From positions 153,882 to 217,881 of the forward strand of contig JAQTZV010000007.1 in the NCBI GenBank assembly GCA_028687585.1: a stretch of 64,000 bases of DNA, written 5' to 3'. The position numbers and the translations under genes are program-made. The notes beneath the pieces were generated by a model that did not search any database, was not told where the DNA came from, and saw only the letters and a list, made by a program, of their open reading frames with translations. Origin of the DNA: Desulfuromonadaceae bacterium (lineage in GTDB: Bacteria > Desulfobacterota > Desulfuromonadia > Geobacterales > Pseudopelobacteraceae). Positions within the stretch are counted from its first letter, which is position 1. The number at the start of each line of letters is the position of its first letter. Below, in pieces: positions 19,831 through 46,433 of this stretch.

Positions 19831-19869
19831 TTTTTACCTGAATCATTGTTACTCCCATTGCAATGATAT

Positions 19870-19922: not shown

Positions 19923-19966
19923 TCGAAAAACGGTGCCATTGCTGAAAACCATAATAATGCTCTCGC

Positions 19967-19986
19967 ATAGGCGTAAAGATTGCAAA
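19967..19986 (+). promoter_or_regulatory. Candidate sigma-54 promoter of moxR/coxE
   Basis: ATAGGCGTAAAGATTGCAAA has -24 GG at 19970-19971, -12 GC at 19982-19983 and 10 nt between. The -24 box is weaker (AGGCGT), but TTGCA is exact. The predicted start is about 40 nt before the moxR ATG. Confidence 0.5.
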
Positions 19987-20035
19987 GAAACAGCAGTGCA
20001 GAAAGGCTCACTAAATTCAACGACACGAGGCCATC

Positions 20036-20938: not shown

Positions 20939-20940
20939 TC

Positions 20941-22353
20941 ATGGAACGGATTATCGCCGGATTTGTCGCCGCCCTCCGTGAAAGCGGTATCCGCGTTTCT
21001 CCCGGTGAGAGCCTGGATGCGGTTCAGGCGTTGGCGCTCTGCGGCATGGACGCTCGCCGCTCTTCCCGGCAGCTCCTCCGGCTGACGCTGGTGAAGAATG
21101 TCAACGACATTGCGGTGTTCAATGAGGTCTTCAACCGCTATTTCAGCCGCTTCCATTATGTCGACCCGGAAAGTGATGTTCCCGCGCTCATGGACGCTGC
21201 TATCATCGACATGGAGGGGGGGGAATTCACCTATCTGAACCAGCAGCAGGGTGACGACCACGATGATCACGGCCCTCTGCTCAAACTTGACAGCGAAATC
21301 AGCCCAGAAGATTTGGCTGAACTGAAAAGCCTGACGGAGATCGATCCGGACGATACGGACGGGACTGAAATAGTTATGCAGATGAAGGGGTACCGCGGCA
21401 AGGCAAAGAAACCTCCCCGGTCGACGCGCCGCTATACGCAGAATCCGCTCGTGATAGAACTTAACAAGAGCGACAGTGTCGGGCGAGGTGTCACTTTTTC
21501 TCCTGAAGAGCAAGCCGCCATGCAGGATGTTGTGTCCCGTATGATGCTGCGTCTCCGCAAGGATATGAAGCGGATGAAGAACAACCAGAATCGCGGCAAG
21601 CTGCACGTCATCAAGACGATCCAGAAAAATTACCGCCATGACATGGTGCCGTTTCAGGTGGCACTGCGGCGTAAACGCCGCGAGAAGCCGCGTCTGGTAG
21701 TGCTTTGTGATGTCAGTTTTTCCGTGAGTCACGCTTCCCGTTTCATGCTGCTGCTGCTCCATACCCTGCATAATCAGCTCCTTGATGTACGCAGTTTCAT
21801 CTATAACCGGGATATTTCGGAAATCACCGACATGCTCGCCAATATGCCGGTCAACGATCTGATGGAAACCATTGATACCGGCGACATCGTTGATCTTGAT
21901 GAAAACAGCAGTTTTGGCCAGGTTTTTCTGAAATTCAAAAAGCAGTACCTGGAAAACCTGCGCGGTCGACCGGCCTTTATCATCCTGGGAGATGCACGCA
22001 ACAACTACGGCGATGCCAATGACTTCGTGCTTGACGAGATCCGTGAGAAGGCCCGCTACATGCTCTGGCTGACTCCGGAGGATCGTGATTCGTGGAGCCG
22101 GGGTGATTGCTTGATGGATCTCTACGGTTCCTACTGCGACCGGGTAGAGGTTGTAAAAACGGTTGATGAGTTGAGTCTGTTTGTCGAGGATCTCCTGCGC
22201 GACATCTATGCCGATAAGGCAGACCCGCTGGACAGAAAAAAAATCCTTGAAGCCAAGGCAGCAGAGACCTACGACCCCAGTGACTATTATCACCGAGGAG
22301 AAAGCAGCCGCAGCGAGCCGGTTTTCGACCCTGGCGGACGCGGCCATTGGTAA
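20941..22353 (+). CDS. CoxE-like von Willebrand factor A protein
   Basis: The 470-residue protein has a helical N-terminus (ESGIRVSPGESLDAVQAL is typical of CoxE-like proteins), an acidic middle and a C-terminal VWA domain whose metal site starts DVSFS near residue 257. It is the standard partner of MoxR ATPases, the pair acting as a remodelling machine that matures metalloenzymes. The spacing from moxR is 2 bp. The long frame on the opposite strand is a shadow of this gene. The client is unknown; the local dehydrogenases are candidates. Confidence 0.88.
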   Translation: MERIIAGFVAALRESGIRVSPGESLDAVQALALCGMDARRSSRQLLRLTLVKNVNDIAVFNEVFNRYFSRFHYVDPESDVPALMDAAIIDMEGGEFTYLNQQQGDDHDDHGPLLKLDSEISPEDLAELKSLTEIDPDDTDGTEIVMQMKGYRGKAKKPPRSTRRYTQNPLVIELNKSDSVGRGVTFSPEEQAAMQDVVSRMMLRLRKDMKRMKNNQNRGKLHVIKTIQKNYRHDMVPFQVALRRKRREKPRLVVLCDVSFSVSHASRFMLLLLHTLHNQLLDVRSFIYNRDISEITDMLANMPVNDLMETIDTGDIVDLDENSSFGQVFLKFKKQYLENLRGRPAFIILGDARNNYGDANDFVLDEIREKARYMLWLTPEDRDSWSRGDCLMDLYGSYCDRVEVVKTVDELSLFVEDLLRDIYADKADPLDRKKILEAKAAETYDPSDYYHRGESSRSEPVFDPGGRGHW

Positions 22354-26880: not shown

Positions 26881-28020
26881 TCACCGAAGATACTTATCGA
26901 GCCCCATGTGCCGGTGCAGTGCGCCGAACTCTTTCCGACCGAGCCTGACGTACTGCCGCAGATAATGAAACCCTTCAAACGGGAGCGCGTAACGCTCCAA
27001 GCCGGGCTCCGTGCAGCACTTGCATTCGGGAAATTCCAGGATGTGTCGACGGAAACTGGCGGCCTCGCCGGAGCGCAGTAATTCCTCCAGCGGCGTATCC
27101 TTCACGTTCCCCACAAGGTGGTCGATGATCGGGCAGGGGAAGAACTCACCGGTACTCCGGATAAAGAAATAATTGAACCCCGCCGAACAGGGCTTGTTCA
27201 TCCGGCCGGTATCCAGGAAGCGGAGTAGTTCGTCACGGTAATAGTTCCACCGGAAACGGGGGGTGTTGTAAAAACGCCTGAGCTTTGCTGCTTCGTTGGC
27301 GGAAAGGGCTAACCGATCCATGCCTTCCAGATTGGCGTAGCGATTGGCGGTGAGAATGTACGGCGAGATGATAGTAAAGAGGCCGTGCGCATCGGCATAA
27401 TTGCATACATTGTCCAACTCGTCGATGTTGTAGCTGGTGACGGTGGTCTTGATTCCGAGGACGAGACTCGGAAACTTTTGTCGAAGCGCCGCAAGGCCCA
27501 TGATGGTCGCGTCAAGCTTCTCCCATCCCCCCTCGAAGTTTCGAATGCGATCGTGGGCTGTGCCCACTGCGTCGAACCCGCAGGCGAATACCAGTGTCAC
27601 GCCAGCTCCTTCCAAAGGGGCGAGCACTGCCGCCACATCTTTCAGGATCTTGTCGGTCAGGAAGCCGTTAGTCGTAATGGCTACTGAGCAGAGTCGCTTC
27701 AAGCGGGTTGCCTTTAGCCGCCCGATGCCGAGCAGAAGCTCAACGATGTCGTTTCTCAGAAACGGCTCGCCCCCGGTGACGTCAAGCTCCTTCAGTTCGG
27801 AGAGGAGTGGCGATGCCAGCATCCGCAGCCAGTCGGCCGCTTCCAGTTCCGGGGCGGTCGCCGGCATCTGCCAGATGTTGCACATGACGCACCTGCCCAT
27901 GCAACGCCGGGTGACCTCCATGCTCAGAGCCTCGGGCTTCCCCGGTAGGCCCATGGCCTTAAGGCACTGAAAACGGATTCCTCGGGCGGCAAGTATGAAT
28001 GGGATGCGATCAAACGCCAT
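26881..28020 (-). CDS. Radical SAM protein with SPASM/twitch-like C-terminus
   Basis: The 379-residue protein carries the cluster Cys40, Cys44 and Cys47 (RRCMGRCVMC), DVTGGEPF and a C-terminal Cys set (KPCSAGFNYFFIRSTGEFFPC, then FPECKCC). The family includes peptide-modifying and lipid- or tail-modifying enzymes. It faces the NudC gene convergently and stands alone, with no peptide ORF visible beside it. The substrate is unknown. It is less like MftC than like the broad YfkAB/HpnH-type group. Confidence 0.75.
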   Translation of the reverse strand: MAFDRIPFILAARGIRFQCLKAMGLPGKPEALSMEVTRRCMGRCVMCNIWQMPATAPELEAADWLRMLASPLLSELKELDVTGGEPFLRNDIVELLLGIGRLKATRLKRLCSVAITTNGFLTDKILKDVAAVLAPLEGAGVTLVFACGFDAVGTAHDRIRNFEGGWEKLDATIMGLAALRQKFPSLVLGIKTTVTSYNIDELDNVCNYADAHGLFTIISPYILTANRYANLEGMDRLALSANEAAKLRRFYNTPRFRWNYYRDELLRFLDTGRMNKPCSAGFNYFFIRSTGEFFPCPIIDHLVGNVKDTPLEELLRSGEAASFRRHILEFPECKCCTEPGLERYALPFEGFHYLRQYVRLGRKEFGALHRHMGLDKYLR

Positions 28021-34252: not shown

Positions 34253-34271
34253 GTTGGCATTGCCGTTGCAA
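34253..34271 (+). promoter_or_regulatory. Sigma-54 promoter of the mycofactocin operon
   Basis: GTTGGCATTGCCGTTGCAA has -24 GG at 34256-34257, -12 GC at 34268-34269, exact TTGGCA and TTGCA and 10 nt between. The start should lie near 34281, 54 nt before mftA. Confidence 0.85.
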
Positions 34272-34334: not shown

Positions 34335-34439
34335 ATGGAAGTAGAAAACCAAGAAGTAACATGCAGCGAAGAACCGCGTATCCTTGAGGAAATCCAGGTT
34401 GAAGAGCTCGCAATCGACGGCATCTGCGGGGTGTACTAA
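34335..34439 (+). CDS. mftA: Mycofactocin precursor peptide
   Basis: The 34-residue peptide is acidic with the diagnostic C-terminus IDGICGVY. In the known pathway MftC oxidatively decarboxylates the terminal Tyr and crosslinks it to Val, and the Val-Tyr unit becomes the redox cofactor mycofactocin. The body EEIQVEELAIDG is the usual recognition stretch for MftB. AAAGGAG stands 7 nt before the ATG. It is first in an operon driven by a sigma-54 promoter. An extra Cys at residue 10 is not essential in the family. Confidence 0.95.
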   Translation: MEVENQEVTCSEEPRILEEIQVEELAIDGICGVY

Positions 34440-34440
34440 G

Positions 34441-34689
34441 ATGGCTGCGGCAGGCATCAAGCTGCATCCGTCCTGCCGCGTGCGGCAAGAGGGGTTCGGT
34501 CTCCTGTTCTATGACTGCAAGGGACCGCGCCTTCTCTTCGCTGCTACTGGCACACTTCTTCCCGCCGACTACTTTGGAACCGTCCGTGCCAGGGATGAAT
34601 TCCCTGACGGTACTTCAGAATCCCAGAAGCCGGCCTTACAAAAATTCATCACTCAACTCCTCGAAAAAGGATTTCTCCGTGAGCAATAA
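34441..34689 (+). CDS. mftB: Mycofactocin peptide chaperone (PqqD-like)
   Basis: The 82-residue protein (KLHPSCRVRQEGFGLLFYDC, then LLFAATGTLL) has the PqqD/RRE fold signature of MftB, which binds MftA and presents it to MftC. It starts one base after the mftA stop and overlaps mftC by 11 nt, so the three are translationally coupled. It is somewhat shorter than actinobacterial MftB. Confidence 0.9.
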   Translation: MAAAGIKLHPSCRVRQEGFGLLFYDCKGPRLLFAATGTLLPADYFGTVRARDEFPDGTSESQKPALQKFITQLLEKGFLREQ

Positions 34690-35719
34690 ATACGTCGAAA
34701 TGGGAATGCGTTCCCCGGTAAATCTGACCTGGGAGGTCACGCTGGCGTGCAACCTTCGCTGTAATCACTGCCTCTCGTCATCCGGAGAAAAGGCTTGTAA
34801 CGAACTCTCCACCGCCGAGGCGCTTGATCTTGTGGAGCAACTGCACACCGCAGGCGTTTTTCAGGTAAATTTTGGCGGCGGCGAACCGTTTATCCGTCCC
34901 GACTTTGAAGAGATTCTGGCTGCCTGCCATGCCAGGGGGATCATGACCTGTATCTCCACTAACGGCACCCTTCTTACTCCTGAACTGGTTGCGCGACTGG
35001 CATCAAGCCCGTTGGTGGCTATTCAGGTGAGCCTTGACGGCGCCCGGCGGGAAACCTGCGATGCCGTGCGCGGTGACGGCGTCTTTGACGCAGCCATTGC
35101 TGCGGTCAAGCTGCTGGCTGCCACGAAAATTCCGGCCAGTATCAATACGGTCCTCACCACCCACAATGCCAGCGAAATTCCGGCCATGCACGACCTGGCC
35201 CGTTCTCTGGGAGTTTCTCTGCGGGTCAGCCGCTTCCGTCCCTCCGGTCGCGGAGCGGATAACTGGGAATCGCTCCGGCCGACCCCGACACAACTGATCG
35301 ATTTTTCCGACTGGCTTGCGAAAAGCGGTGATGTTCGTACCGGCGACAGTTTTTTCTCACTGACAACACAGGAGCGCCAGGGGCTGGGTCTCAATCTCTG
35401 CGGCGCGGCCAAGCTGACCTGCTGCGTAAGCCCTACCGGCCATATGTATCCCTGCGCTTTTCTCCAGAGCGACCGCTTTGAAGCGGGCGATCTCCGTGCC
35501 AGCAGCTTTCAGGAGATCTGGGATACCTCGGAAATTTATGCATCATTTCGTAACCTGCGCATCCATTCCTGCGAGGAGTGCACCCGCTTCGATCAGTGCC
35601 ATGGAGGCTGTCCCGCGGTTGCCTGGCATCTTAAAAACGATATCAACGGTGGTGATCCGGAATGCCTGGAGCGCTGTGTGACATCGATTGCCGACAATCG
35701 GCTGGCGGAAGCCGCATAA
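34679..35719 (+). CDS. mftC: Mycofactocin radical SAM maturase
   Basis: The 346-residue enzyme starts at the GTG at 34679 (AAGGA upstream), inside the end of mftB. The radical SAM cluster is Cys24, Cys28 and Cys31 (ACNLRCNHC), with FGGGEPF near 63. The SPASM domain has CCVSPTGHMYPC, then CEECTRFDQCHGGC and a last CLERC, giving two auxiliary clusters. It decarboxylates and crosslinks the C-terminal Val-Tyr of MftA. The longer frame that begins within mftB is not needed. The match to MftC is strong from length, motifs and neighbours. Confidence 0.93.
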   Translation: MSNKYVEMGMRSPVNLTWEVTLACNLRCNHCLSSSGEKACNELSTAEALDLVEQLHTAGVFQVNFGGGEPFIRPDFEEILAACHARGIMTCISTNGTLLTPELVARLASSPLVAIQVSLDGARRETCDAVRGDGVFDAAIAAVKLLAATKIPASINTVLTTHNASEIPAMHDLARSLGVSLRVSRFRPSGRGADNWESLRPTPTQLIDFSDWLAKSGDVRTGDSFFSLTTQERQGLGLNLCGAAKLTCCVSPTGHMYPCAFLQSDRFEAGDLRASSFQEIWDTSEIYASFRNLRIHSCEECTRFDQCHGGCPAVAWHLKNDINGGDPECLERCVTSIADNRLAEAA

Positions 35720-35724
35720 AAAAT

Positions 35725-35752
35725 GTAGGGGCGCCGCTTGCTGCGCCCTTAC
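35725..35752. repeat. Intercistronic hairpin between mftC and the OYE gene
   Basis: GTAGGGGCGC pairs with GCGCCCTTAC across an 8-nt loop. There is no T run, so it is more likely an mRNA-stabilising or dispersed hairpin than a terminator. It may set lower expression of downstream genes. Confidence 0.55.
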
Positions 35753-35782
35753 AATCAATAATCCCTTGAGGAGCCATACATC

Positions 35783-37744
35783 ATGATGTTTCCGAATCTG
35801 TTCTCACCCCTCAAAATAGGCACTACCGAGGTGAAAAACCGCATCTCCTTCCAGCCGCATCTTACCAATCTGGCCATAAGCAATCTCCCCAGCGAACGCC
35901 AGATGTACTACTGGGGCGAGCGGGCCAAGGGGGGGGCAGGTCTGGTCATCACCGAGGAACTGACGGTTCATCCGACTGACATGGCGTACGAAAAGCTGAT
36001 CGACGTCTACCATGCGGAAGTAATTCCCGGCTTCAAGAAGATTACCGACTACGTGCACCAGTACGACTCCAAAATCTTCGCCCAGCTGAACCACAACGGT
36101 CAGCAGGGTGACGGCAGCCTCTCCCGTCTGCCGATCTGGGCCCCGTCGCCGATTCCGGACGTCCTGTTTCGGGAGATCCCGAAGGCGATGGAACCGGAGG
36201 ACATCGAGGAAGTGGCCCGTTATTTTGCCAAGAGCGCCATCCATGTTCGTGAAGGGGGCTTCGACGGGGTAGAAATCCAGTTCGGTCACTCCAGTCTGGC
36301 GCGTCAGTTTCTCTCTCCACTTACCAACTTCCGTAGTGACGAATACGGCGGGAGCCTGGAAAACCGGATGCGGGCGCCACTCAAATTCATCTCTGCGGTG
36401 AGAAAGGCGGTCGGCAACGACTTCACCCTCGGCATCCGCATGTGCGCCGACGAGATGATTCCGGGCGGACTCGACCTGGCCCAGGTGCAGGAAATCTGTG
36501 CCCTCTTCGAGGCATCCGGGCTGATCGATTTCATGGATCTTTCCATTGCCACATTCTACAACCTCTATCTTGTGGAAGGCTCGATGCATTCTCCGCTCGG
36601 CTACACCATCCCGCTGGCCGCCGGAATTCGCGAAAAAATCAAGTTGCCGGTATTCTGTACCGGCAGAATCAACGACCCGGTCATGGCCGAAAAGGTGCTG
36701 GCCGCCGGCCAGGCTGACATGATCGGCATGTGCCGTGCCCTGATCTGTGACCCGTTCCTCCCCAAGAAGGCGCAGGAAGGCCGGGTGGACGACATCCGCT
36801 ACTGCATCGCCTGTAACCAGGGCTGCATCGGCCGGATCGGCATGAACAAATCCCTTGGCTGCGTCCAGAACCCGGCAGTGGGTCGGGAAAAGGAGTGGGG
36901 CGAAGGGACCCTGGAAAAAGCCAGTGTAAAGAAGAACGTTACTATCGTCGGCGGTGGACCGGCCGGCATGTGGGCGGCCAAGATGGCCGGCAGGCGCGGC
37001 CACACGGTCACCCTCATCGACCGGAACGAGGCTCTTGGCGGGCAGGTTATCACCGCCATGAAGGGTGTCGGGCGCGACGAATTCGGCGTCATCATCAGAA
37101 ACGAGAAGAGTCAGGTGGAGAAGGCCGGGGTGACCGTAAAACTCGGCGTTGAGGCGTCAAAGGAACAGCTCCTGGCCGAGAAGCCGGATGTGTTGATCGT
37201 GGCCACCGGCAGCGTTCCCAAGAAGCACCCGGTAGGCGGCGCCGACGGTCCGGCGATATTTAATGTCGTGCAGGTGCTGAACGGTGAGGCCGAGCTGGGC
37301 GAGAGAGTCTGTCTGATCGACTACGACGGGCACCAGCGTGCTACCGCCACTGCCGAGTTCATTGCCAACCAGGGGAAAAAGGTCGACATGATCACCTCCA
37401 GCCTCTTCATCTGTGCAGAGCTGGGACCAACCCAGGATCTTTATTCATCACGTCAGCGGCTGCTGCAGAAGGGGGTCACCTTTACCCCCGACATCGCCGT
37501 GATGGAGGTTGGCGGCGAAGCAGGAGCCAAGACCGTCAAGGGGTTCAATGTCTACTCCAATGTCTGGTTCGACTGGGGTCCCTATGACTCCCTCGTTCTG
37601 GTTATGGGACAGCAGGTTGACGACGACCTGTACATGAGCTTGAAGGGTACGGTGCCGGAGTTGTACCGGATCGGCGACTGTGTTTCCCCCCGTAAGGTCG
37701 ATATGGCTATCTGGGAAGGGCACAAACTCGGGAGGGAGATCTGA
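35783..37744 (+). CDS. Mycofactocin-system FadH/OYE-family oxidoreductase
   Basis: The 653-residue flavoenzyme has an N-terminal old-yellow-enzyme barrel with FMN, a 4Fe-4S site (Cys341, Cys344, Cys348, Cys360 in CIACNQGC and GCVQNP) and a C-terminal FAD/NAD(P) part beginning VTIVGGGPAGMWAA. The layout is that of 2,4-dienoyl-CoA reductase and trimethylamine dehydrogenase. OYE/FadH proteins occur as accessory genes of mycofactocin loci. Trimethylamine dehydrogenase passes electrons to ETF, and here etfA follows with a TGATG overlap, so it may oxidise mycofactocinol or a substrate and reduce the ETF. That coupling is inferred. Confidence 0.85.
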   Translation: MMFPNLFSPLKIGTTEVKNRISFQPHLTNLAISNLPSERQMYYWGERAKGGAGLVITEELTVHPTDMAYEKLIDVYHAEVIPGFKKITDYVHQYDSKIFAQLNHNGQQGDGSLSRLPIWAPSPIPDVLFREIPKAMEPEDIEEVARYFAKSAIHVREGGFDGVEIQFGHSSLARQFLSPLTNFRSDEYGGSLENRMRAPLKFISAVRKAVGNDFTLGIRMCADEMIPGGLDLAQVQEICALFEASGLIDFMDLSIATFYNLYLVEGSMHSPLGYTIPLAAGIREKIKLPVFCTGRINDPVMAEKVLAAGQADMIGMCRALICDPFLPKKAQEGRVDDIRYCIACNQGCIGRIGMNKSLGCVQNPAVGREKEWGEGTLEKASVKKNVTIVGGGPAGMWAAKMAGRRGHTVTLIDRNEALGGQVITAMKGVGRDEFGVIIRNEKSQVEKAGVTVKLGVEASKEQLLAEKPDVLIVATGSVPKKHPVGGADGPAIFNVVQVLNGEAELGERVCLIDYDGHQRATATAEFIANQGKKVDMITSSLFICAELGPTQDLYSSRQRLLQKGVTFTPDIAVMEVGGEAGAKTVKGFNVYSNVWFDWGPYDSLVLVMGQQVDDDLYMSLKGTVPELYRIGDCVSPRKVDMAIWEGHKLGREI

Positions 37745-38748
37745 TGGGCGCGAGCGGCAAAATCCTTGTTTTTGTCGATCTTCCCGACCGGGAACTCGAT
37801 GAAACCGGCAGGGGAATGCTCTCCTACGCTGCACGCCTGGCCGGGACCCTTGGCAGTTCGTGGAGCGCGGCGGTAGCTGTTATGCCCGACAGGGGGCAGC
37901 TTGCCGTTTTCGGCGCCTACGGCACTCCGGCGGTTGTCTGTATAGAAGGCGGAGCAGCACTGCTCGATACGCCGACACTGCTGGGAAAACATCTTGCCCA
38001 ACTGGCTCGGGACGAGTCGGCGACCGTGGTGCTCCTTCCGCATAATGACCTCGGCGCAACCATGGCGCCCATCGTGGCCCATGCGCTTGATGGCGCGATT
38101 ATGACCGAACTGGTTGCCGTCCGGAAGGGCGCGGATGGCGTACGACTCTCCCGCAAGACGCTCGGTGTTCGTATTGCAGAAACCAGGGTGTGGGACAGCT
38201 CCCGTCCATTGATCGCAACGGTCCCGCTGCGCACACTGAGTCAGGTAATCATGGCTACCGTTCGTCCGAGTTCACCATCTCTGGTTGCATGGTGTCCTGC
38301 TGCTCCTATCTCGGCCGCGATGGCAACGATTATCAGCCGGATTCCTCCCGACCCCCAGACGGTAGACCTGACCGAAGCGGATGTGATTTTCAGTGCCGGC
38401 AAGGGGTGCGACCCGACCACTTTTGAGCAGCTCAAAGAACTGTGCAGAGAGCTGAACGTTTCCTTCGGCGTTACCCGCCCGGTGTACGATCTCGGCTGGA
38501 CCGGTTTCGAGCGGATGGTCGGTCAGACCGGACGCACAGTGACCCCCCGTCTGTATGTGGCTCTGGGGATCTCCGGTTCCATGCATCATATCGGCGGCAT
38601 CAAGGATTCCCGACGGATCATTGCGGTCAACAGTGATGCCAAGGCCCCGATCTTTCCGAACGTTGATGAAGGATTTGTCGGTGACTTGAAGGAGCTGCTG
38701 CCGCGCCTACTGAAACAGGTTAAAGCCGGAACGGGAGGTGCGCCATGA
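37744..38748 (+). CDS. etfA: Electron transfer flavoprotein alpha subunit
   Basis: The 334-residue protein has the alpha-subunit FAD domain near the C-terminus (GQTGRTVTPRLYVALGISGS, then KDSRRIIAVNSDAKAPIF). It accepts electrons from a dehydrogenase and passes them on together with EtfB. The partner beta gene lies at 40410, beyond fixC and fixX, an order that keeps the whole ETF/ETF-quinone oxidoreductase set in one transcript. It overlaps its neighbours on both sides. FixB naming is equally valid. Confidence 0.92.
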   Translation: MGASGKILVFVDLPDRELDETGRGMLSYAARLAGTLGSSWSAAVAVMPDRGQLAVFGAYGTPAVVCIEGGAALLDTPTLLGKHLAQLARDESATVVLLPHNDLGATMAPIVAHALDGAIMTELVAVRKGADGVRLSRKTLGVRIAETRVWDSSRPLIATVPLRTLSQVIMATVRPSSPSLVAWCPAAPISAAMATIISRIPPDPQTVDLTEADVIFSAGKGCDPTTFEQLKELCRELNVSFGVTRPVYDLGWTGFERMVGQTGRTVTPRLYVALGISGSMHHIGGIKDSRRIIAVNSDAKAPIFPNVDEGFVGDLKELLPRLLKQVKAGTGGAP

Positions 38749-40043
38749 GTAAAACCTATCAGGCAATTGTGGTAGGCGCCGGTCCGGCCGGTTCATCCGC
38801 CGCCCTGATTATGGCTCGCGCCGGACTGGACGTGGCGCTGGTTGAACGGGGCACATTCCCGGGCGAAAAAAATATGTTCGGCGGGGTGCTGCACCGCCTG
38901 CCGGCTCTGGAGGAGATCTTCCCCGACTTCTGGGATCGTGCGGCTCTGGGGCGGCACATCATCAAAAAAGGTGTCACCTTCATGACCGGCGACTCCAGCT
39001 TCAGCACGGTCATCGAATCAGGCAACTTCGATAAAACGCCCTATAACGGCTACAGCATTTTCCGCCCCCGTTTCGACAACTGGCTGGCCCAGGAAGCGGT
39101 CAAGGCCGGGGCAACGCTCATCACTCGCGCTACGGTCGATGATCTGGTCTACAAGGATGGCAAGCTGGCCGGCGTTTCCATAGTCGGCCGCACCGGAGAA
39201 CTGTTGGCGCCGGTAGTGATTGCGGCCGACGGCGTACTTTCCTTTATCGCTAAAAAAGCCGGTCTCCGGCAGCCGACCTTCAACCCGGCTCAGATGGCGG
39301 TCGGGGTGAAAGCTCTTATTGATATGCCGCGTGAAATGATCGATGACCGCTTCGGTCTGGTGCGCGAGCAGGGATTTGCCAATGAATTTGTCGGCTGTAC
39401 CGCCGGTGTGCGTGGCGGCGGTTTCCTGTATACCAATTATGATTCTCTCTCCGTCGGTCTGGTGTTCCACCTGGCAAGCCTGCGGGTCAGCGGCAAAACC
39501 CCCTATGATCTCCTGAACGCCTTCATGGAGCAGCCGCAGCTGGCAAAAATGATCAGCGGCGGCAGACTCCAGGAATATTCGGCGCACCTGATTCCCGAGG
39601 GGGGCTATGAGATGATCCCCGAACTGGTTGGCGACGGCATTCTGGTCGCCGGCGATGCCGCCGCGCTCTGTAACGCCACCGGCCTCAATCTGGAAGGAAT
39701 CAATCTGGCCTCTCAATCCGGGGTACTCGCCGGCAAAGCGGTTATCGAAGCCCATCAGAACAAGAACTTCAGCAAGCAGGGTCTGTCCGTCTATAAAAAA
39801 CTCATGGATGAGAGCTACGTCATCAAGGACCTCAAGCTCTACCGCAAGGCACCGCACATGCTCCACAACGACCGCATCTACAATGAATACCCGGAACTTA
39901 TGTGCAGTTTCATGGAGTACATTTATCGTATTGACGGGGCACCAAAAGAAAATCTGACCAAGCTGTTCCTCAAATCGGCCAAAGAAAAAGTCGGCCTTGG
40001 CAATCTGCTGGCGGATGGTTTCAGCGCCTGGAGAGCACTATGA
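38745..40043 (+). CDS. fixC: FixC-type ETF-quinone oxidoreductase, FAD subunit
   Basis: The 432-residue flavoprotein has GAGPAGSSAA (9-18), CTAGVRGGGFLYTNYDSLSV and GDGILVAGDAAAL with NLEGINLA, the FAD and membrane-facing residues of ETF-QO/FixC. It passes electrons from reduced ETF to quinone with FixX. It overlaps etfA and fixX by ATGA. In this operon it gives mycofactocin-linked oxidation a route into the menaquinone pool, an inference from gene order. Confidence 0.92.
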   Translation: MSKTYQAIVVGAGPAGSSAALIMARAGLDVALVERGTFPGEKNMFGGVLHRLPALEEIFPDFWDRAALGRHIIKKGVTFMTGDSSFSTVIESGNFDKTPYNGYSIFRPRFDNWLAQEAVKAGATLITRATVDDLVYKDGKLAGVSIVGRTGELLAPVVIAADGVLSFIAKKAGLRQPTFNPAQMAVGVKALIDMPREMIDDRFGLVREQGFANEFVGCTAGVRGGGFLYTNYDSLSVGLVFHLASLRVSGKTPYDLLNAFMEQPQLAKMISGGRLQEYSAHLIPEGGYEMIPELVGDGILVAGDAAALCNATGLNLEGINLASQSGVLAGKAVIEAHQNKNFSKQGLSVYKKLMDESYVIKDLKLYRKAPHMLHNDRIYNEYPELMCSFMEYIYRIDGAPKENLTKLFLKSAKEKVGLGNLLADGFSAWRAL

Positions 40044-40318
40044 ATATTGAAGAAATTTTCGACCATACCAGCTTCACCATCGACCGGGATCCGCATATTG
40101 TGCTCGACTATGCCGTCTGCACCGGCTGCGATAACCGTGGCTGCGTTAACTCCTGCCCAGCCAAATGCTACACCTGGTCAGAAGAGGATCAGAAGATGAC
40201 TTTCGTCCATGACGGCTGCCTTGAGTGCGGCACCTGCTACGTTGTCTGTCATCGCAGCGCTTTTACCCGCTGGCGCTATCCCCGGGGAGGATTCGGGGTC
40301 GCGTACCGAATGACGTAA
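40040..40318 (+). CDS. fixX: FixX-type ferredoxin-like protein
   Basis: The 92-residue protein has Cys27, Cys30, Cys35, Cys39 and Cys43 (CTGCDNRGCVNSCPAKC) and CLECGTCYVVC, ending with the FixX signature RYPRGGFGVAYR. It is the Fe-S partner of FixC in ETF-quinone electron transfer. It overlaps fixC by ATGA. The first Cys group is richer than in most FixX and might hold a second cluster. Confidence 0.92.
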   Translation: MNIEEIFDHTSFTIDRDPHIVLDYAVCTGCDNRGCVNSCPAKCYTWSEEDQKMTFVHDGCLECGTCYVVCHRSAFTRWRYPRGGFGVAYRMT

Positions 40319-40325
40319 TATCAGG

Positions 40326-40394
40326 CTGATGACTGAAGGCTGAAGGTTTGAAATGTTTTTCTACCTTCGGTCTTCAGCCTTCGACCTTCAACCT
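40326..40394. repeat. Intercistronic inverted repeat between fixX and etfB
   Basis: GACTGAAGGCTGAAGGTT is mirrored by CTTCAGCCTTCGACCTTC with further AAGGT/ACCTT pairs. It is an imperfect long hairpin made of CTGAAGG-type words, probably a dispersed element tolerated within the operon. Confidence 0.55.
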
Positions 40395-40409
40395 TTTTTG
40401 GAGTTATCC

Positions 40410-41303
40410 ATGCCAAACAATAAACATACTATCCTCGTTCTCCTCCGCGAGACCAATGATCCCCGCCCCCCCGCCCGTGTCACTGCACGGGGTGCGGCCA
40501 TCAGTGAGCGCGGTCTGCGTCGCATGCCGAACCCGGCTGATCTGGCCGCGCTGGAAGAGGCGCTCTGTCTGAAAGATTCTCTTGGCGCAGCGGTGACGGT
40601 GCTTGCAGTCGGCCCGGTGCGTCTCGATGACTCTCTGCGCCTGGCGTTTTCCATGGGAGCTGACCGGGCAATCCGTTTTTGGGATCATGGCATGGAAGGT
40701 GGCGATGCCATGGCAGACGCCAAAGTGCTGGCCCGCATCATAACCATCATTGCGCCATCGTTTCTGTTCACCGGCAATAGTCTTACGGACCGGGGTGACG
40801 ATCCGGTGCCGGCACTCGCCGCCGCCGCGACATCTATGCCCTGCATTGGCGCTGCAGTTTCAATTCTTCCCGGTAATAACAGTGTAGAGGTGCAGCGCAA
40901 GTCTGACCGTGGCGCCCGGCAGGTTGTCGGGGCCACGCTTCCCTGTACGGTTCTCTTCGAGGAGGTTCGTACACCGCGTTACCCTTCGATTGACGCCATT
41001 ACCGCATCGTTGTCGGCAAACATCGAGAAATGGGACCTGTCACATCTGGGGCTCCCCTTCTGGGAAATCGGCTCAGCCGGCGCCTACCTTGCCGCAGCTG
41101 ATTTCGGAGTGCCCCGACCTGACCCGACCCGGGTGGTAACTCCCGACCCGTCACTACCCGCCTTTGAGCGGATACTCTCGCTCCTCTCCGGCGGCATCAA
41201 AGCCCGCAGCGGAAAACTGAACCAGCTCTCCGCCGATGACACTGCCAACGCTCTTTTGGACATTTTCCGTGAAGAAGGATTGACCGCGGGTGAGGCGCCA
41301 TGA
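40410..41303 (+). CDS. etfB: Electron transfer flavoprotein beta subunit
   Basis: The 297-residue protein starts at the ATG at 40410 behind TTGGAG. EEALCLKDSLGAAVTVLAVG and LAFSMGADRAIRF are the beta-subunit AMP/FAD domain. RKSDRGARQVVGATLPCTV corresponds to the recognition-loop region that docks with dehydrogenases. It pairs with EtfA at 37744. It is longer than the usual 250-260 residues, with extra sequence near the C-terminus. It overlaps mftF by ATGA. Confidence 0.88.
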   Translation: MPNNKHTILVLLRETNDPRPPARVTARGAAISERGLRRMPNPADLAALEEALCLKDSLGAAVTVLAVGPVRLDDSLRLAFSMGADRAIRFWDHGMEGGDAMADAKVLARIITIIAPSFLFTGNSLTDRGDDPVPALAAAATSMPCIGAAVSILPGNNSVEVQRKSDRGARQVVGATLPCTVLFEEVRTPRYPSIDAITASLSANIEKWDLSHLGLPFWEIGSAGAYLAAADFGVPRPDPTRVVTPDPSLPAFERILSLLSGGIKARSGKLNQLSADDTANALLDIFREEGLTAGEAP

Positions 41304-42733
41304 ACTACCGTCTGAGGAACAACGTGCAGTTGGTGGAACGGGACGGAGAAATATTTCTCATGTCCAAAACGCCGCTCTGCGCTCTGCGCCTCAATCGCTC
41401 ACTGGCTGATCTGCTTGGCCGGGGATCCGAAGGAAGGGTGATAGCCGCTGCCGAATCAGAACGCGGCGTCATGGAACAGTTGGCGGCAAAAGGTTTTGCC
41501 GAGCGGGTTCGGACCGCTCCGGAACAGCCTGCATCGCTCCCTGAAGTGAGTGTTGTTATCCCGGTCATGAACCGGGCTGATGAGTTGCGGCGCTGTCTGA
41601 CCTCGCTCACGCAGCTCGCCTATCCGCATGAGAAACTGCAGATCATCGTAGTGGACGACGGCAGCAGTGACGCTTCTCCTGAAGTTGCCCGCGAGTTCGG
41701 CGCGTTAGTGGCGCCGTCAGGCGGGGTAGGGCGAGGACCGGCGGCGGCCCGTAATGTGGGCGCTTCCTTGGCTGACGGAGAAATACTGGCATTTATTGAT
41801 TCTGACTGCAGTGCCTCTCCTGATTGGCTCTGCCAGCTGATTCCCGCTTTTAACGACTCCGACATGGCGGCAGTCGGCGGTCAGGTTGACGGAATGTGTA
41901 CCGAATCTGCCGTTGACCGCTATGAGGCGGTCATGTCAAGTCTCTCCATAAGTTCACGGGAGCGGGTCGGGAACAGTGGCACTGACACGTTCTACCTTCC
42001 CAGCTGCAATCTGCTGGTGCGGCGCAGCGCTTTCAGGAGTGTTGGCGGCTTCGATGACAGCATGCATGTCGGTGAGGATGTCGATTTGACCTGGCGTCTG
42101 CGGGACAGACGCTGGAGCATCTGCTATCTTCCGCTCGGAAATATCCTTCACGAACATCGCAGCTCAATCCGCTCCTTCATGTCCCGGCGCTTCGACTACG
42201 GCACATCGGAAGGAATACTGCAGCTCCTCCATCCCACTCGTCACAAGCGGATGGTCATCCCTCCGCTGCTGGCAGCCATACTCGTACTCTGCCTGATGAC
42301 GTATTTTACGGGAGGGTGGTCACTGCTGGCGGCGGGCGGACTCCTGCTGTCCGATGCAGCCGCCGTACGACTGCGAACCGGCAAACAAGGGCTTCCGATC
42401 ACTCTGGCTGCGATTCTAGCGGGGCGACTCCGCGCACTCGGAAGTCTGATATACTATCTCAGCTATCATCTGGTGCGTTACTACGCCATTGCACTGATCA
42501 TGATCACCCTGTTTGCGCCGGTTCTCTGGCTGCTGTTCGGGACTGTTCTTGCCACTGCTGCCGGTGTTGACTACGCCGTCAAGAAGCCGAAACTGTCGTT
42601 TTACACGTTCACCGGCATCTATCTTCTGGAGCAGCTAGCCTACGGGGCCGGGGTTTTTTGGGGATGTTTGAGCCGTAGATGTTTTGCAAGTTACCGTATT
42701 GAAATTTTTCGGCAAATGGAGCAGACTGCATAA
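41300..42733 (+). CDS. mftF: Mycofactocin system glycosyltransferase
   Basis: The 477-residue protein begins with a PqqD-like stretch (NYRLRNNVQLVERDGEIFLM). A GT2 domain follows (VSVVIPVMNRADELRRCL, IIVVDDGSSD, AFIDSDC, GGFDDSMHVGEDVDLTWR), and then hydrophobic segments near 310-345 and 390-430. In the known pathway MftF adds beta-1,4-glucose units to the modified peptide or the redox core. It ends the operon, separated from mftC by the electron-transfer genes. The combination with the N-terminal domain makes the assignment firm. Confidence 0.9.
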   Translation: MNYRLRNNVQLVERDGEIFLMSKTPLCALRLNRSLADLLGRGSEGRVIAAAESERGVMEQLAAKGFAERVRTAPEQPASLPEVSVVIPVMNRADELRRCLTSLTQLAYPHEKLQIIVVDDGSSDASPEVAREFGALVAPSGGVGRGPAAARNVGASLADGEILAFIDSDCSASPDWLCQLIPAFNDSDMAAVGGQVDGMCTESAVDRYEAVMSSLSISSRERVGNSGTDTFYLPSCNLLVRRSAFRSVGGFDDSMHVGEDVDLTWRLRDRRWSICYLPLGNILHEHRSSIRSFMSRRFDYGTSEGILQLLHPTRHKRMVIPPLLAAILVLCLMTYFTGGWSLLAAGGLLLSDAAAVRLRTGKQGLPITLAAILAGRLRALGSLIYYLSYHLVRYYAIALIMITLFAPVLWLLFGTVLATAAGVDYAVKKPKLSFYTFTGIYLLEQLAYGAGVFWGCLSRRCFASYRIEIFRQMEQTA

Positions 42734-42763: not shown

Positions 42764-42842
42764 GCCTACCGGTTCACTCCCATGGCGGCAGGCCATTGGG
42801 TTGTGCGGGAAACGGCGCAGCCTTCCTTTGAAAAGGAGAATT
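42764..42842. repeat. Diverged inverted copy of the 6564/6756 repeat
   Basis: CATGGCGGCAGGCC, then GGGAAACGGCGCAGCC and TTCCTTTGAAAAGGAGAA, align with the reverse complement of the 100-bp repeat. It lies just before the AOR gene and probably does not code. Confidence 0.6.
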
Positions 42843-42883
42843 TCATCTGTGCAACGCACAGAATAAGGGAAAGGAGAACAGAT

Positions 42884-44620
42884 ATGGACAAAATTGCACG
42901 GATTGACATGGGGGCCGCTGGAGGCCCGAAGGTAACAGTTGCCGGACTCGGCGACTATGCCGGCCTGGGCGGCAGGGCAATGACGTCTCTCGTCGTTGCT
43001 GCTGAAGTTCACCCACTCGCCCACCCGCTGGGTGCGGAAAACAAATTGGTTATCTCCCCCGGTATGCTCAGCGGCACGGTCGGTTCCATGACCGGGCGTC
43101 TGTCGGTCGGCTGCAAAAGTCCGTTGACCGGTACCATCAAGGAATCCAACGCCGGCGGCCAGGCGGCGCAGGTATTGGCCAGACTCGGCTATGCCGCAGT
43201 TATCCTCGAAGGTAAGCCTGCAGGAGACGATCTCTACAAAATTGTTATTTCCAAAGACGGCATCAAAGTCATCGTCGATAACAGCCTCAAGCTTATGGAC
43301 AACTACCCAGTGGTAGAAAAACTTCGCAAAGAATATGGCGACAAGGTTGCCTACATGACGATCGGTTCTGCCGGGGAGCGCAAAATGCTTGCGGCTTCCA
43401 TCGCCTGCACCGATCCCGAGTTACGTCCAACCCGTCACTGCGGCCGTGGCGGCGTCGGAGCGGTCATGGGTGCCAAGCGTGTCAAGGCGATCATCATCGA
43501 TGATGCCGGCGTAACGATGCGACCAGCTAAAAATCCTGAAGCCTATCGTGATGCCAACCGCAAATTCGTTGAAGGTCTGCGCAAACACCCGGTCACCGGT
43601 GAAGGTCTGCCCGCCTATGGTACTAATGTTCTGACCAACGTACTCAATGAGGCTGGTGGTTATCCGACCAACAACTTCAAAACCGGCCAGTTTGAGGGCG
43701 GTTCCAAGATCAGCGGCGAAGCCCAGGCCGAACTGGAAATCAAGCGGGGCGGTTCTGCCACCCACGGCTGCCATCGCGGCTGTGTCATCCAGTGTTCCGG
43801 TATCTACAACGACAAGGACGGCAAATACCTCACCAAGCAGCCTGAGTACGAAACGGTCTGGTCACACGGCGGGCACTGCGGTATCTCGAATCTTGATGCC
43901 ATTGCCCAAATGGACTACATGGACGACAATTTCGGTGTTGACACCATCGAAATGGGTGTAACCATCGGTGTTGCCATGGATGCCGGGCTTGCAGAGTTTG
44001 GTGATGAAGCCGGAGCAATCCGGCTGTTGGAAGAAGTCGGCAAAGGGACTCCTCTTGGGTGCGTCCTCGGCAGTGGCGCGGGAATCACCGGCAAGGTCTT
44101 TGGTGTCGAGCGTGTACCGGTAGTCAAGAATCAGGCCCTCCCGGCCTATGATCCACGCGCCGTTCAGGGTATCGGCGTAACGTACGCAACAACGACCCAG
44201 GGTGCTGACCACACCGCCGGCTATGCTATCGCGACAAACATCCTCAAGGTTGGCGGTGATGTTGATCCGCTCAAAACCGAAGGGCAGATCGAACTGTCGC
44301 GCAACCTGCAGATCGCCACTGCAGCAATCGACTCCACCGGTATGTGCCTTTTCATCGCCTTTGCTATTCTGGATCAGCCGGAAACCTTCCAGGCGCTGCT
44401 TGACATGCTCGGTTCTTTCCATGGCATAACCATGACCGGCGACGATGTTGTTGCTCTTGGCAAAAAAGTGCTTTCCGCCGAGCGGGATTTCAACACCCGT
44501 GCCGGTTTCACCAAGCACGATGACCGTCTGCCGCGCTTTTTCTACACCGAGCCGGTTGCACCACATAACGTGACGTTCATGATGAAAGACGAAGAGCTGG
44601 ACGAAGTCTTTAACTGGTAA
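42884..44620 (+). CDS. aor: Tungsten-containing aldehyde:ferredoxin oxidoreductase
   Basis: The 578-residue enzyme oxidises aldehydes to acids, or reduces acids, with ferredoxin. It has HCGRGGVGAVMGAKRVKAI (186-204) for the bis-pterin, the cluster ligands Cys296, Cys300 and Cys304 (GCHRGCVIQC) and Cys488 (DSTGMCLF). The first spacing is C-x3-C rather than the C-x2-C of the archaeal enzymes. AAAGGAG precedes the ATG at 42884; the longer frame includes a repeat element. MoaD- and ThiF-like genes follow, and tungstate uptake genes and moaA are elsewhere in the window. It would consume aldehydes made by the alcohol dehydrogenases. Confidence 0.93.
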   Translation: MDKIARIDMGAAGGPKVTVAGLGDYAGLGGRAMTSLVVAAEVHPLAHPLGAENKLVISPGMLSGTVGSMTGRLSVGCKSPLTGTIKESNAGGQAAQVLARLGYAAVILEGKPAGDDLYKIVISKDGIKVIVDNSLKLMDNYPVVEKLRKEYGDKVAYMTIGSAGERKMLAASIACTDPELRPTRHCGRGGVGAVMGAKRVKAIIIDDAGVTMRPAKNPEAYRDANRKFVEGLRKHPVTGEGLPAYGTNVLTNVLNEAGGYPTNNFKTGQFEGGSKISGEAQAELEIKRGGSATHGCHRGCVIQCSGIYNDKDGKYLTKQPEYETVWSHGGHCGISNLDAIAQMDYMDDNFGVDTIEMGVTIGVAMDAGLAEFGDEAGAIRLLEEVGKGTPLGCVLGSGAGITGKVFGVERVPVVKNQALPAYDPRAVQGIGVTYATTTQGADHTAGYAIATNILKVGGDVDPLKTEGQIELSRNLQIATAAIDSTGMCLFIAFAILDQPETFQALLDMLGSFHGITMTGDDVVALGKKVLSAERDFNTRAGFTKHDDRLPRFFYTEPVAPHNVTFMMKDEELDEVFNW

Positions 44621-44674
44621 TTGAAATGCTGCGAGGGGGATCTCCTCCTCGCAGCAGTCATTCGGGAGACAACC

Positions 44675-45208
44675 GTGAAGCTGGAAACTCTGAAATTACA
44701 TCTGAATAGTGACGATCTGCATCTGTTCTTTCCGCTTTTCCAGAAGGGAGTAACCGTTCCTGCCATTGTAGGGTGTACGCTTAAAAGCCTGCTCGTTGAC
44801 CAGTTTGCCATCCCCGTTGACTATGTAACCGACCGGATAACAACCATATTTTTAGACAACCGCCCCGTAGATGATCTTGATCGCACCATTATACAGGAGG
44901 GGTCCCGGGTAACCCTGTCGGCTGCCATGCCTGGTCTTGTCGGCGCCACCATGCGGCGCGGCGGTTTCTATGCTGCGCTGCGCCAGGGGATAAGTTACGC
45001 GGCAGATAGTGAAAAAACATCAGACACATCCGGGACGGTCCGCCTAAAATTGTTTAATCTCCTGCTGGCTGAACTTGCTCCAACTGTCCTGGCGCGAGGG
45101 CTTATTCTGGAACGGGACGAATTCAATGAACTTCTCCGCAATCTCCCCCCGCAAACAAAACATTCGCAGCAGGACACCGGCATGATTCTTCTTACGGCCA
45201 CCTTTTAA
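44675..45208 (+). CDS. Unknown protein in the AOR operon
   Basis: The 177-residue protein starts at a GTG behind CGGGAGA, 54 bp past aor. The middle (IFLDNRPVDDLDRTII, EGSRVTLSAAMPGLVGATMR) recalls beta-grasp ThiS/MoaD-like proteins, but there is no terminal GG. The C-terminal half is helical. Genes of this kind accompany aor in Geobacter-like bacteria. It may be an AOR-specific maturation or inhibitory factor. The function is not established. Confidence 0.6.
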   Translation: MKLETLKLHLNSDDLHLFFPLFQKGVTVPAIVGCTLKSLLVDQFAIPVDYVTDRITTIFLDNRPVDDLDRTIIQEGSRVTLSAAMPGLVGATMRRGGFYAALRQGISYAADSEKTSDTSGTVRLKLFNLLLAELAPTVLARGLILERDEFNELLRNLPPQTKHSQQDTGMILLTATF

Positions 45209-45297
45209 TAGATTTTAGAAGTTGTTTTCTAAGATTTTCTGGTAGAAAATGACTCCATAATCACATGTATCCTGTTATCAGGGCCAGGAGAAACTCT

Positions 45298-45522
45298 ATG
45301 AACATAACCGTCAAACTGTTTGCTTCATTTCGTACCGGTCGTTTCGACATTGAAACCGGGGATTATCCGGCGGGAACCACTGTGGCTGATGTGGCCGACA
45401 GTCTGAACCTGCCGCAATCCGAGTTAGGGATAATGATGATCAACAACCGGCATGTCAAACTTGACCGCCAGATTGCCGAAGGCGATATTCTGGCGCTCTT
45501 TCCACTGCTTGGCGGGGGGTGA
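45298..45522 (+). CDS. MoaD/ThiS-family sulfur carrier
   Basis: The 74-residue beta-grasp protein starts MNITVKLFASFRTG and ends LFPLLGGG, the di-glycine tail that is adenylated and thiocarboxylated. It starts at the ATG at 45298 (AGGAG upstream). Downstream lies its likely activator, a ThiF-like enzyme. It probably donates sulfur for the dithiolene of the AOR pterin cofactor, as a dedicated MoaD or alternate carrier. Confidence 0.88.
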   Translation: MNITVKLFASFRTGRFDIETGDYPAGTTVADVADSLNLPQSELGIMMINNRHVKLDRQIAEGDILALFPLLGGG

Positions 45523-45523
45523 T

Positions 45524-46375
45524 ATGGATGCGTTATCGGCATTTATCCGGGATCATTCAGATGGTCAGTTATTTCCATGGGCCCGACAGCATGAGGCCGC
45601 GGTACGTTTTAGCGTAAGCGTGGCCCAGGTTGAAGCAGCTGCTTTGCAGCAGAACATTCTTCCTGCCCGCTATCAGCGAAATCGCCAGGCAATTTCTGTC
45701 AGTGACCAGTTTACCATCTTCAGTAGTTGTGTCGCCGTAATCGGCTGTGGCGGACTTGGCGGTTATGTTGTGGAAGAGTTAGCCCGGCTTGGGGTCGGCA
45801 GGATTGTGGTGATCGATCCGGACGTATTTGAAGAGCATAACCTGAACCGGCAGCTTTTCAGCACTCCGGCCAACCTCGGGAGAGCCAAGGTAGAGGCGGC
45901 GGCCGCAAGAGTCAGAGAAATAAATCCGGCAGTAACTCTGGCGCCGATTCAAAAAGCGTTTTCCATTGACAATGGTGCGGAGCTGCTTAACGGGTGTCAG
46001 ATTGTCGTTGATGCGCTTGATTCAATTCAGGTTCGCTTGGAGTTGGCTGAAATCTGCTCCACAATGAATATTCCCCTGGTTCATGGCGCCATTGCCGGAT
46101 GGTTCGGGCATGTAACGACCCAGTTCCCGGGTGACACTACGCTGCAAACTATCTATCGTTCCTGGAAGGGGGGAAAGGGGGTAGAACAGACACTGGGAAA
46201 TCCCTCGTTCACTCCTGCGGTAGTAGCAAGCATAGAAGTCGCAGAGGTCTGCAAACTACTGCTGGGGCAAGGGAATCCTCTACGAGGACGACAGTTGATA
46301 ATTGATCTGCTTTCAATGGAGATTCAGGTCATTGACTTACATGAAGAGATCGTCACGGTTGCCTCAGAATTCTGA
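45524..46375 (+). CDS. ThiF/MoeB-family adenylyltransferase
   Basis: The 283-residue E1-like enzyme has VIGCGGLGGYVVEELARLGV, VVIDPDVFEEHNLNRQL and DALDSIQVRLEL, the ATP and carrier-binding motifs. It should adenylate the C-terminal glycine of the MoaD-like protein encoded 2 bp upstream. The paired CxxC zinc motifs of classical MoeB are not seen, so it belongs to a Zn-free branch. An N-terminal extension of about 65 residues precedes the Rossmann domain. It ends the AOR operon at a strong terminator. Confidence 0.88.
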   Translation: MDALSAFIRDHSDGQLFPWARQHEAAVRFSVSVAQVEAAALQQNILPARYQRNRQAISVSDQFTIFSSCVAVIGCGGLGGYVVEELARLGVGRIVVIDPDVFEEHNLNRQLFSTPANLGRAKVEAAAARVREINPAVTLAPIQKAFSIDNGAELLNGCQIVVDALDSIQVRLELAEICSTMNIPLVHGAIAGWFGHVTTQFPGDTTLQTIYRSWKGGKGVEQTLGNPSFTPAVVASIEVAEVCKLLLGQGNPLRGRQLIIDLLSMEIQVIDLHEEIVTVASEF

Positions 46376-46387
46376 GGCACACTTCTC

Positions 46388-46433
46388 CTGATCAGTGCAG
46401 CAGTGTCACTGCTGCGCTGATCAGGCCATTTTT
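46388..46433. terminator. Strong, probably bidirectional terminator
   Basis: CTGATCAGTGCAGCAGTG pairs with CACTGCTGCGCTGATCAG (one mismatch) with a minimal loop, followed by GGCCATTTTT on the plus side. It separates the convergent AOR and arginine units. Confidence 0.85.

Follow-up and report, generated by a model that had tools for sequence, protein, structure and literature searches.

A mycofactocin gene set in a Geobacter-like Desulfuromonadaceae bacterium (class Desulfuromonadia) holds five genes between the maturase gene mftC and the glycosyltransferase gene mftF, encoding an old yellow enzyme (OYE) type flavoenzyme of the mycofact_OYE_2 family (OYE2), both subunits of an electron transfer flavoprotein (ETF) and a FixC-FixX pair, in the order OYE2-etfA-fixC-fixX-etfB. 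The set lies in a stretch of 64,000 nucleotides of contig JAQTZV010000007.1 (positions 153,882 to 217,881; assembly GCA_028687585.1), called the window below and used for all coordinates. In bacteria as well as archaea, this module is found in mycofactocin gene sets that for the most part lack MftD. MftD oxidises AHDP (3-amino-5-[(p-hydroxyphenyl)methyl]-4,4-dimethyl-2-pyrrolidinone) to pre-mycofactocin, and the OYE2-EtfAB-FixCX module is, on comparative sequence analysis, somewhat probably an oxygen-independent pre-mycofactocin synthase that does the job of MftD.

Profile searches placed mftA, mftB, mftC, OYE2 and mftF of the window over their NCBIfam cut-offs (Table 1), and the joint presence of MftA, MftB, MftC and MftF assigns the set to the mycofactocin biosynthesis system. 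These four proteins have been described as universal markers, while MftD and MftE are found in most and not all sets and are therefore not defining (PMC3023750). MftA has 34 residues and ends in IDGICGVY. Pfam clearly identifies EtfA and EtfB as ETF subunits, yet they fall under the NCBIfam cut-offs for the mycofactocin-associated forms (mft_etfA, 133 of 240 bits; mft_etfB TIGR04503, 67 of 200 bits). The gene calls and gene order of the first-pass annotation held gene by gene; its description of mostly 4-nt overlaps applies to etfA/fixC, fixC/fixX and etfB/mftF, whereas OYE2 and etfA share 1 nt and mftA and mftB do not overlap. The start of mftC is placed at the GTG at 34679, as suggested by the starts in relatives, and the true start of etfB may be a later ATG. 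Compared with the canonical mftABCDEFG arrangement (e.g. Tsukamurella plasmid NZ_LR134465.1), the window set has the same MftA core, MftB, MftC and MftF families and mftABC order, and differs in having no MftD, MftE or MftG, in the module between mftC and mftF, in a downstream aldehyde:ferredoxin oxidoreductase (AFOR) set and in a sigma54-type promoter element.

The class was represented by 277 genomes including that of the window, and MftF was over its cut-off in 60 of them; 59 mftF regions were fetched and the window supplied the sixtieth. At 57 of the 60 loci etfB was immediately 5' of mftF, so that the ETF set is tightly tied to the mft genes in related genomes, a linkage whose absence would, by the first-pass annotation, have refuted its proposal. 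One further contig starts at mftF (L096), and in the other two genomes (locus L052 of G084 and L079 of G088) no etfB precedes mftF and mftB, mftC and mftF adjoin without the module. OYE2 was matched at 1e-200 or better in 60 of the 277 genomes, 54 with mftF and six without an mftF match. In all six, mftC is the neighbour of OYE2 and the contig stops before the expected mftF, and thus no class genome has OYE2 at this threshold but lacks mft genes. Four more genomes with mftF gave no OYE2 match at 1e-200, and their loci are truncated or incomplete: the contig of G203 stops in etfA, those of G224 and G243 start inside OYE2, and the OYE2 of G151 (L217), a metagenome-type assembly, lacks residues 37-279 through an internal deletion or an assembly gap. 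G084 (76% complete) and G088 (99% complete) are the only clear class cases without OYE2.

These two genomes are also two of only three among the 60 in which MftD was over its cut-off. In the window's genome, listed as 100% complete and 3.3% contaminated, the best MftD match reached 25 bits against a cut-off of 471, and MftE gave no match at 1e-3. MftE was over its cut-off in none of the 60 genomes, 40 of which had a weaker creatininase match of 109-128 bits, and MftG in none of the 60, with a single sub-cut-off match of 246 bits. One class genome listed with 7% contamination (G125; L060, L110 and L111) has the OYE2 operon plus two MftD genes on other contigs. The MftA core was alike in sets with MftD and sets with OYE2: CGVY was present in 124 of 125 peptides from 124 loci, found with a pattern that permitted V, A, I or T and with some genomes entering twice under class and other sample names. 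The single exception ends in MDGICGAY, with alanine in place of the core valine. In M. smegmatis MftD makes pre-mycofactocin and deletion of mftD abolishes mycofactocin (PMC7491314). As MftD is needed there and absent in 57 of the 60 class genomes with the same MftA core, something else must do the MftD step. Loss of MftE was considered as a fatal gap and set aside, because the M. smegmatis mftE deletion is leaky, which has been ascribed to an unknown peptidase (PMC7491314), and an unlinked peptidase could therefore suffice.

Among 7999 scored proteins, 5797 matched the MftC profile at 1e-60. Outside the class, the best 80 of 585 loci ranked against the Haloterrigena MftC were reduced to 50 genomes by dropping 11 class members, one repeated genome and 18 loci under 12 kb; no criterion other than a locus length of at least 12 kb was used to pick the 50. 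MftD was over its cut-off in 32 of these genomes, OYE2 in 14, both in one (S. aridisoli) and neither in five (Fisher p = 3e-7). The MftD positives all scored at least 634 bits, the next lower match being 352, and four of the five genomes with neither had a sub-cut-off OYE2 plus etfA and fixC inside the mft locus. Even a single genus can hold both states, with OYE2 in Saccharopolyspora shandongensis and MftD in S. subtropica. Nine of 12 plasmid records with mftC were also read. Four of these plasmids (Thermomicrobium, M. chubuense, Tsukamurella and Streptomyces NBC_00080) have mftD in or beside the set. In Streptomyces NBC_00564, NBC_00557 and SAT1, mftC is followed by OYE1, OYE2, etfA, fixC, fixX and etfB, the SAT1 OYE2 gene being unannotated and split over two open reading frames (ORFs), and in two haloarchaea the module set adjoins mftF on the opposite strand. 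Neither mftD nor mftG was found, by annotation and search, in the stretches read of these three Streptomyces and two haloarchaea.

An MftC tree of 84 proteins (25 class, 50 others and nine plasmid rows) implies that the MftD and OYE2 states replaced each other 12 times, at least nine of these changes being forced by supported branches. The 25 class loci were hand-picked from the 60 for spread, and the three MftD genomes were included deliberately. Of eight independent pairs on supported branches, an average of 7.4 combined a lack of MftD with the module and none showed the opposite (median p = 0.016); a strict OYE2 cut-off gave nine pairs, 6.5 with and none against (p = 0.03), and removal of the plasmid rows seven pairs, 6.4 with and none against (p = 0.03). 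These counts of changes and pairs are approximate, since the tree was a quick one with several long branches. The exchange bears on an ecological explanation, by which anaerobes that carry the module by coincidence have lost MftD, taken to need O2, and rely for its step on some unlinked, unknown enzyme. The class, which we take to be mostly anaerobic, is mostly without MftD, as that explanation would have it. We regard it as very improbable, however, as mftD-free module sets are present in Streptomyces, in haloarchaeal plasmids and in Saccharopolyspora shandongensis, all presumably aerobes, MftD is present in three class genomes, and the state changed at least nine to 12 times in the MftC tree. 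The presence of the module in mft loci of Streptomyces, Saccharopolyspora and haloarchaea also led to rejection of the view that it is peculiar to anaerobes; the first-pass annotation had spoken of an anaerobic mycofactocin respiratory chain.

That annotation had further proposed that reduced mycofactocin, or a product of it, is oxidised through OYE, ETF and FixCX to menaquinone, which would make the module an analogue of MftG and leave the MftD step to another enzyme. MftG was over its cut-off in none of the 14 OYE2 genomes of the 50-genome sample, nor in any of the 60 class genomes as noted above, and about 25% of MftC genomes have no MftG, a replacement having been left open (PMC11778925). 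Transfer from pre-mycofactocin (PMFT, -255 mV) to menaquinone (-74 mV) is downhill (PMC11778925), and a dedicated ETF:quinone chain would suit a steady catabolic flux. The distribution of OYE2 nevertheless follows the absence of MftD. MftG was over its cut-off in six of the 50 genomes, all with MftD (MftG against OYE2, p = 0.17), and the 44 MftG-negative genomes divided by cut-off into one with both OYE2 and MftD, 25 with MftD only, 13 with OYE2 only and five with neither (exclusion p = 2e-6). A plain substitute for MftG would be expected in the 25 MftD-only genomes, and OYE2 hence does not follow MftG loss. Re-oxidation would also give no account of how the MftD step is done in the 57 class genomes without MftD, and as the whole explanation it appears rather unlikely. 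MftG would likewise tie mycofactocin chemistry to the respiratory chain, but it is an unrelated GMC oxidoreductase whose distribution does not mirror the module. The OYE-to-quinone chain of the first-pass annotation is plausible, its route being likely from the relatives and the predicted fold, and it more likely serves synthesis than regeneration: AHDP is a better fit as the substrate oxidised than reduced mycofactocin because the module tracks the absence of MftD and not of MftG, although both may hold.

The predicted chemistry of OYE2 was considered from its family, residues and modelled fold. Its full-length relatives include trimethylamine dehydrogenase (TMADH, 241 bits), histamine dehydrogenases (223 and 213 bits) and 6l6j (208 bits); the closest solved relatives are reductases, and FadH and NCR are among the relatives. 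The flavin mononucleotide (FMN), 4Fe-4S and dinucleotide-domain architecture is present over the full length, with cluster ligands C341, C344, C348 and C360. The second ligand (residue 344, about 36812-36814), cysteine in the window, is aspartate (CxxD) in 13 of 47 class rows. In an alignment of 97 rows, nine of which were omitted as repeats of class members, all 88 remaining rows lack the tyrosine that we take to be the FadH proton donor and have aspartate for the first glycine of what is presumably the NAD(P)H motif, which places OYE2 outside the FadH and NCR ene-reductases. The TMADH residues Tyr169, Trp264, Asp267 and the FMN-linking Cys30 (1o94, 2tmd) are not conserved either, and of the active-site residues Tyr169, His172 and Asp267 together with Cys30 only His172 is kept, as His169. 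OYE2 is therefore filed as working like the amine dehydrogenases and not as a member, and it resembles those that are coupled to an ETF in its sequence features. Pno of nicotine breakdown likewise binds FMN non-covalently (PMC7688666). With FMN and a 4Fe-4S cluster, Pno carries out a deamination in which the oxygen comes from water and the electrons pass through EtfAB and Euo to coenzyme Q, and the Pno-EtfAB-Euo cluster likewise joins a TMADH-family flavoenzyme to its own ETF and ETF:quinone oxidoreductase for an O2-independent amine oxidation (PMC7688666). It differs from the window set in its substrate, in that the membrane oxidoreductase here is a separate FixC plus FixX, and in that OYE2 is only a distant relative.

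The ETF components are shared with the FixABCX and EtfABCX complexes (7koe), to whose parts a dedicated OYE-family dehydrogenase is added here, and a catabolic alternative has OYE2 acting on a catabolic substrate with EtfAB-FixCX as a bifurcating FixABCX-type complex, linked to the mft genes only because the pathway uses the cofactor. Among solved structures, 7koe, 6fah and 5ol2 are those most similar to FixC and EtfA, the closest solved OYE2 relatives are the reductases mentioned above, and AFOR and alcohol dehydrogenase genes are nearby. EtfB, on the other hand, is nearest to the canonical, non-bifurcating ETF partner of TMADH (Table 1) and has a degenerate form of what we take to be the usual ETF beta nucleotide-site motif, OYE2 lacks the NAD(P)H glycine motif, and in lineages whose neighbouring genes differ the module still goes with mft genes and a lack of MftD. 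This alternative is improbable.

The exchange is not a strict rule, and the synthase reading has weak points. Eighteen of the 32 MftD genomes also hold sub-cut-off OYE relatives (up to 698 bits), and at four loci (L153, L170, L171 and L194) such relatives are beside mft genes without etf genes. The fold search did not separate amine dehydrogenases from reductases by rank; in model comparisons OYE2 had root-mean-square deviations of 1.8-2.1 to TMADH, histamine dehydrogenase and 6l6j and of 2.3-2.6 to FadH and NCR. In the Actinomycetospora mft loci (L170, L171 and L194) an OYE1 gene stands with a sub-cut-off OYE2-like gene and no etf genes, in genomes with MftD and MftG, and the OYE relatives may have another role there.

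What the analysis shows directly is the genes, their order and conservation, the promoter element, the exchange with MftD, the residue changes and the predicted fold; the substrate, electron route, quinone, peptidase and physiology of the proposed synthase would be as follows. MftC with MftB would decarboxylate and cyclise the Val-Tyr end of MftA, and AHDP would be released by a peptidase, MftE in other lineages and probably an unlinked one here. The FMN of OYE2 would oxidise the C-NH2 group of AHDP, free or glycosylated, to an imine whose hydrolysis by water would give the redox-active keto group. For amine oxidation with EtfAB as acceptor the observation is the linkage of OYE2 to etfA and etfB, and the electrons would likely pass from the 4Fe-4S cluster to the dedicated EtfAB and on through FixC-FixX to the quinone pool, in the manner of Pno-EtfAB-Euo and TMADH-ETF. 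The sugar chain would be added by MftF, and the finished cofactor would serve iron-containing (Fe-type) alcohol dehydrogenases (Fe-ADH) such as those upstream, AFOR oxidising the aldehyde. A broader version, overlapping with the synthase proposal, has a single OYE2 flavoenzyme both making the cofactor from AHDP and re-oxidising its reduced form, draining electrons to quinone and so replacing MftD and MftG jointly in some nine or more exchanges across bacteria and archaea; we consider it possible but doubtful.

The conserved unit is longer than the range of 34335 to 42733 given by the first-pass annotation and extends to the end of a ThiF-like gene at 46375. It is preceded by a putative sigma54-dependent promoter with GG and GC 10 nt apart. 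An element of this -24/-12 form was found 72-105 nt 5' of mftA at every one of the 41 class loci, that of the window among them, for which 200 nt or more of upstream DNA was available, compared with 71 of 820 random windows from the same loci, and the strict pattern occurs at only three sites in the whole window, that before mftA (34255), 18407 and 11585 (minus strand). An inverted repeat, CGACAGGGGTGTCG, at 34137 was rejected as a conserved enhancer site, being present in one of 43 loci. AFOR at 150 bits or more was located 3' of mftF in 48 of the 60 class loci, some of the others ending at contig edges. The 195-residue protein encoded after AFOR was found in 70 of the 277 genomes of the class. 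Fifty of these 70 have mftF and 20 gave no mftF match, while 10 class genomes that do match mftF lack the protein; it was therefore rejected as a part of the mycofactocin system (e.g. a stand-in for MftE) and belongs with the AFOR set. This unnamed family also accompanies AFOR, the MoaD-like carrier and ThiF in class genomes without mftF. The true start of the ThiF-like gene is probably later than that of its longest ORF, because the latter overlaps the carrier gene.

Table 1. Features of the mycofactocin unit and its neighbours, in window coordinates
Feature	Coordinates	Strand	Evidence
putative sigma54-type promoter (-24/-12 element), some 80 nt 5' of mftA	34255..34270	+	TGGCAttgccgTTGCA; form conserved in class loci
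mftA, mycofactocin precursor peptide, core Val-Tyr	34335..34439	+	NF040489 variant_MftA 47.7 bits (cut-off 30); TIGR03969 44.2 (cut-off 25)
mftB, peptide chaperone	34441..34689	+	TIGR03967 65.8 bits (cut-off 33)
mftC, radical SAM/SPASM maturase	34679..35719	+	TIGR03962 349 bits (cut-off 265)
OYE2 (mycofact_OYE_2), FMN/4Fe-4S/dinucleotide-domain flavoenzyme, proposed O2-independent pre-mycofactocin synthase	35783..37744	+	TIGR03997 1002 bits (cut-off 793)
etfA, ETF alpha subunit	37744..38748	+	PF00766 90 bits; NF038209 mft_etfA 133 bits, under cut-off 240
fixC, ETF:quinone oxidoreductase flavoprotein	38745..40043	+	best solved relative 7koe_C FixC, 266 bits
fixX, ferredoxin-like partner of FixC	40040..40318	+	PRK15449 FixX 58 bits, under cut-off 166; Fer4 domains
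etfB, ETF beta subunit	40353..41303	+	PF01012 77 bits; best solved relative 1o94_C (ETF of TMADH-ETF complex) 88 bits
mftF, mycofactocin glycosyltransferase	41300..42733	+	TIGR03965 357 bits (cut-off 280)
AFOR family protein, tungsten type; linked but separable	42782..44620	+	PF01314 257 bits, PF02730 178; 9mqx_D 316 bits
conserved 195-aa protein without family, accompanies AFOR set	44621..45208	+	no Pfam/NCBIfam match at 1e-5
ThiS/MoaD-like carrier, tail GGG	45265..45522	+	PF02597 35.5 bits
ThiF-like adenylyltransferase, longest ORF	45452..46375	+	PF00899 175 bits over residues 74-296
terminator-like hairpin closing unit	46387..46425	+	18-pair stem then T-rich tail
aldehyde dehydrogenase	7360-8784	minus	
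Fe-ADH-family dehydrogenases, three, upstream	11959, 18625, 22813		22813 is a glycerol dehydrogenase over cut-off
kinase and sigma54 response regulator	13125-15721		
MadB-like ATPase with MadC-like VWA protein	20036-22353		both under cut-off
moaA	upstream of unit		

Upstream of the unit, the sigma54-type site at 18407 is 218 nt before the Fe-ADH gene at 18625, which is followed by the MadB-like and MadC-like genes (18407-22353). The best NCBIfam match of this Fe-ADH is to the NDMA-dependent methanol dehydrogenase family (306 bits against 625), and the region from 18407 to 22353 is likely a mycofactocin-dependent alcohol dehydrogenase set. A pair of AAA ATPase and VWA genes, as upstream in the window, is also beside the haloarchaeal mft and OYE2 genes (L117 and L119). 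Two further radical SAM proteins are encoded in the window, one at 17157-18251, which reaches 103 of the 265 bits required by the MftC model, and one with a SPASM domain at 26881-28020 on the minus strand. Some class relatives, at no more than 10 loci each, have TupA/TupB-like transporter genes (under cut-off) or an Fe-ADH gene beside the set. The neighbours of the window set suggest an alcohol-to-acid regulon, in which mycofactocin would be used for the alcohol step and AFOR for the aldehyde. In G. pickeringii, methanol use and methanol genes upstream of the mycofactocin set have been described (PMC4358379).

Mycofactocin clusters of Geobacter have been in print since 2011 (PMC3023750). The NCBIfam families TIGR03997, NF038209 and TIGR04503 already have their mycofactocin association on record, with no function stated in the entries seen; the window OYE2 is a member of the first, and its EtfA and EtfB are under the cut-offs of the other two. 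Because the OYE_2 and mft-ETF families are already named, the linkage alone is not new. What is new is the distribution of the module tracking the absence of MftD, together with the amine-dehydrogenase reading of OYE2. Neither was found in the literature searched, most subscription papers being outside it, and within it nothing was found on mycofactocin with electron transfer flavoprotein and only coumarin breakdown on mycofactocin with old yellow enzyme.

The module offers a testable candidate for two gaps, the completion of the cofactor without MftD and the link to respiration in MftC genomes without MftG, the latter left open in the 2025 MftG paper (PMC11778925). If the synthase proposal is true, the module would give a function to the mycofact_OYE_2 family, so far merely named, and would add a second way of making a peptide-derived redox cofactor, one that needs no oxygen, which would explain how mycofactocin can be used by anaerobes.

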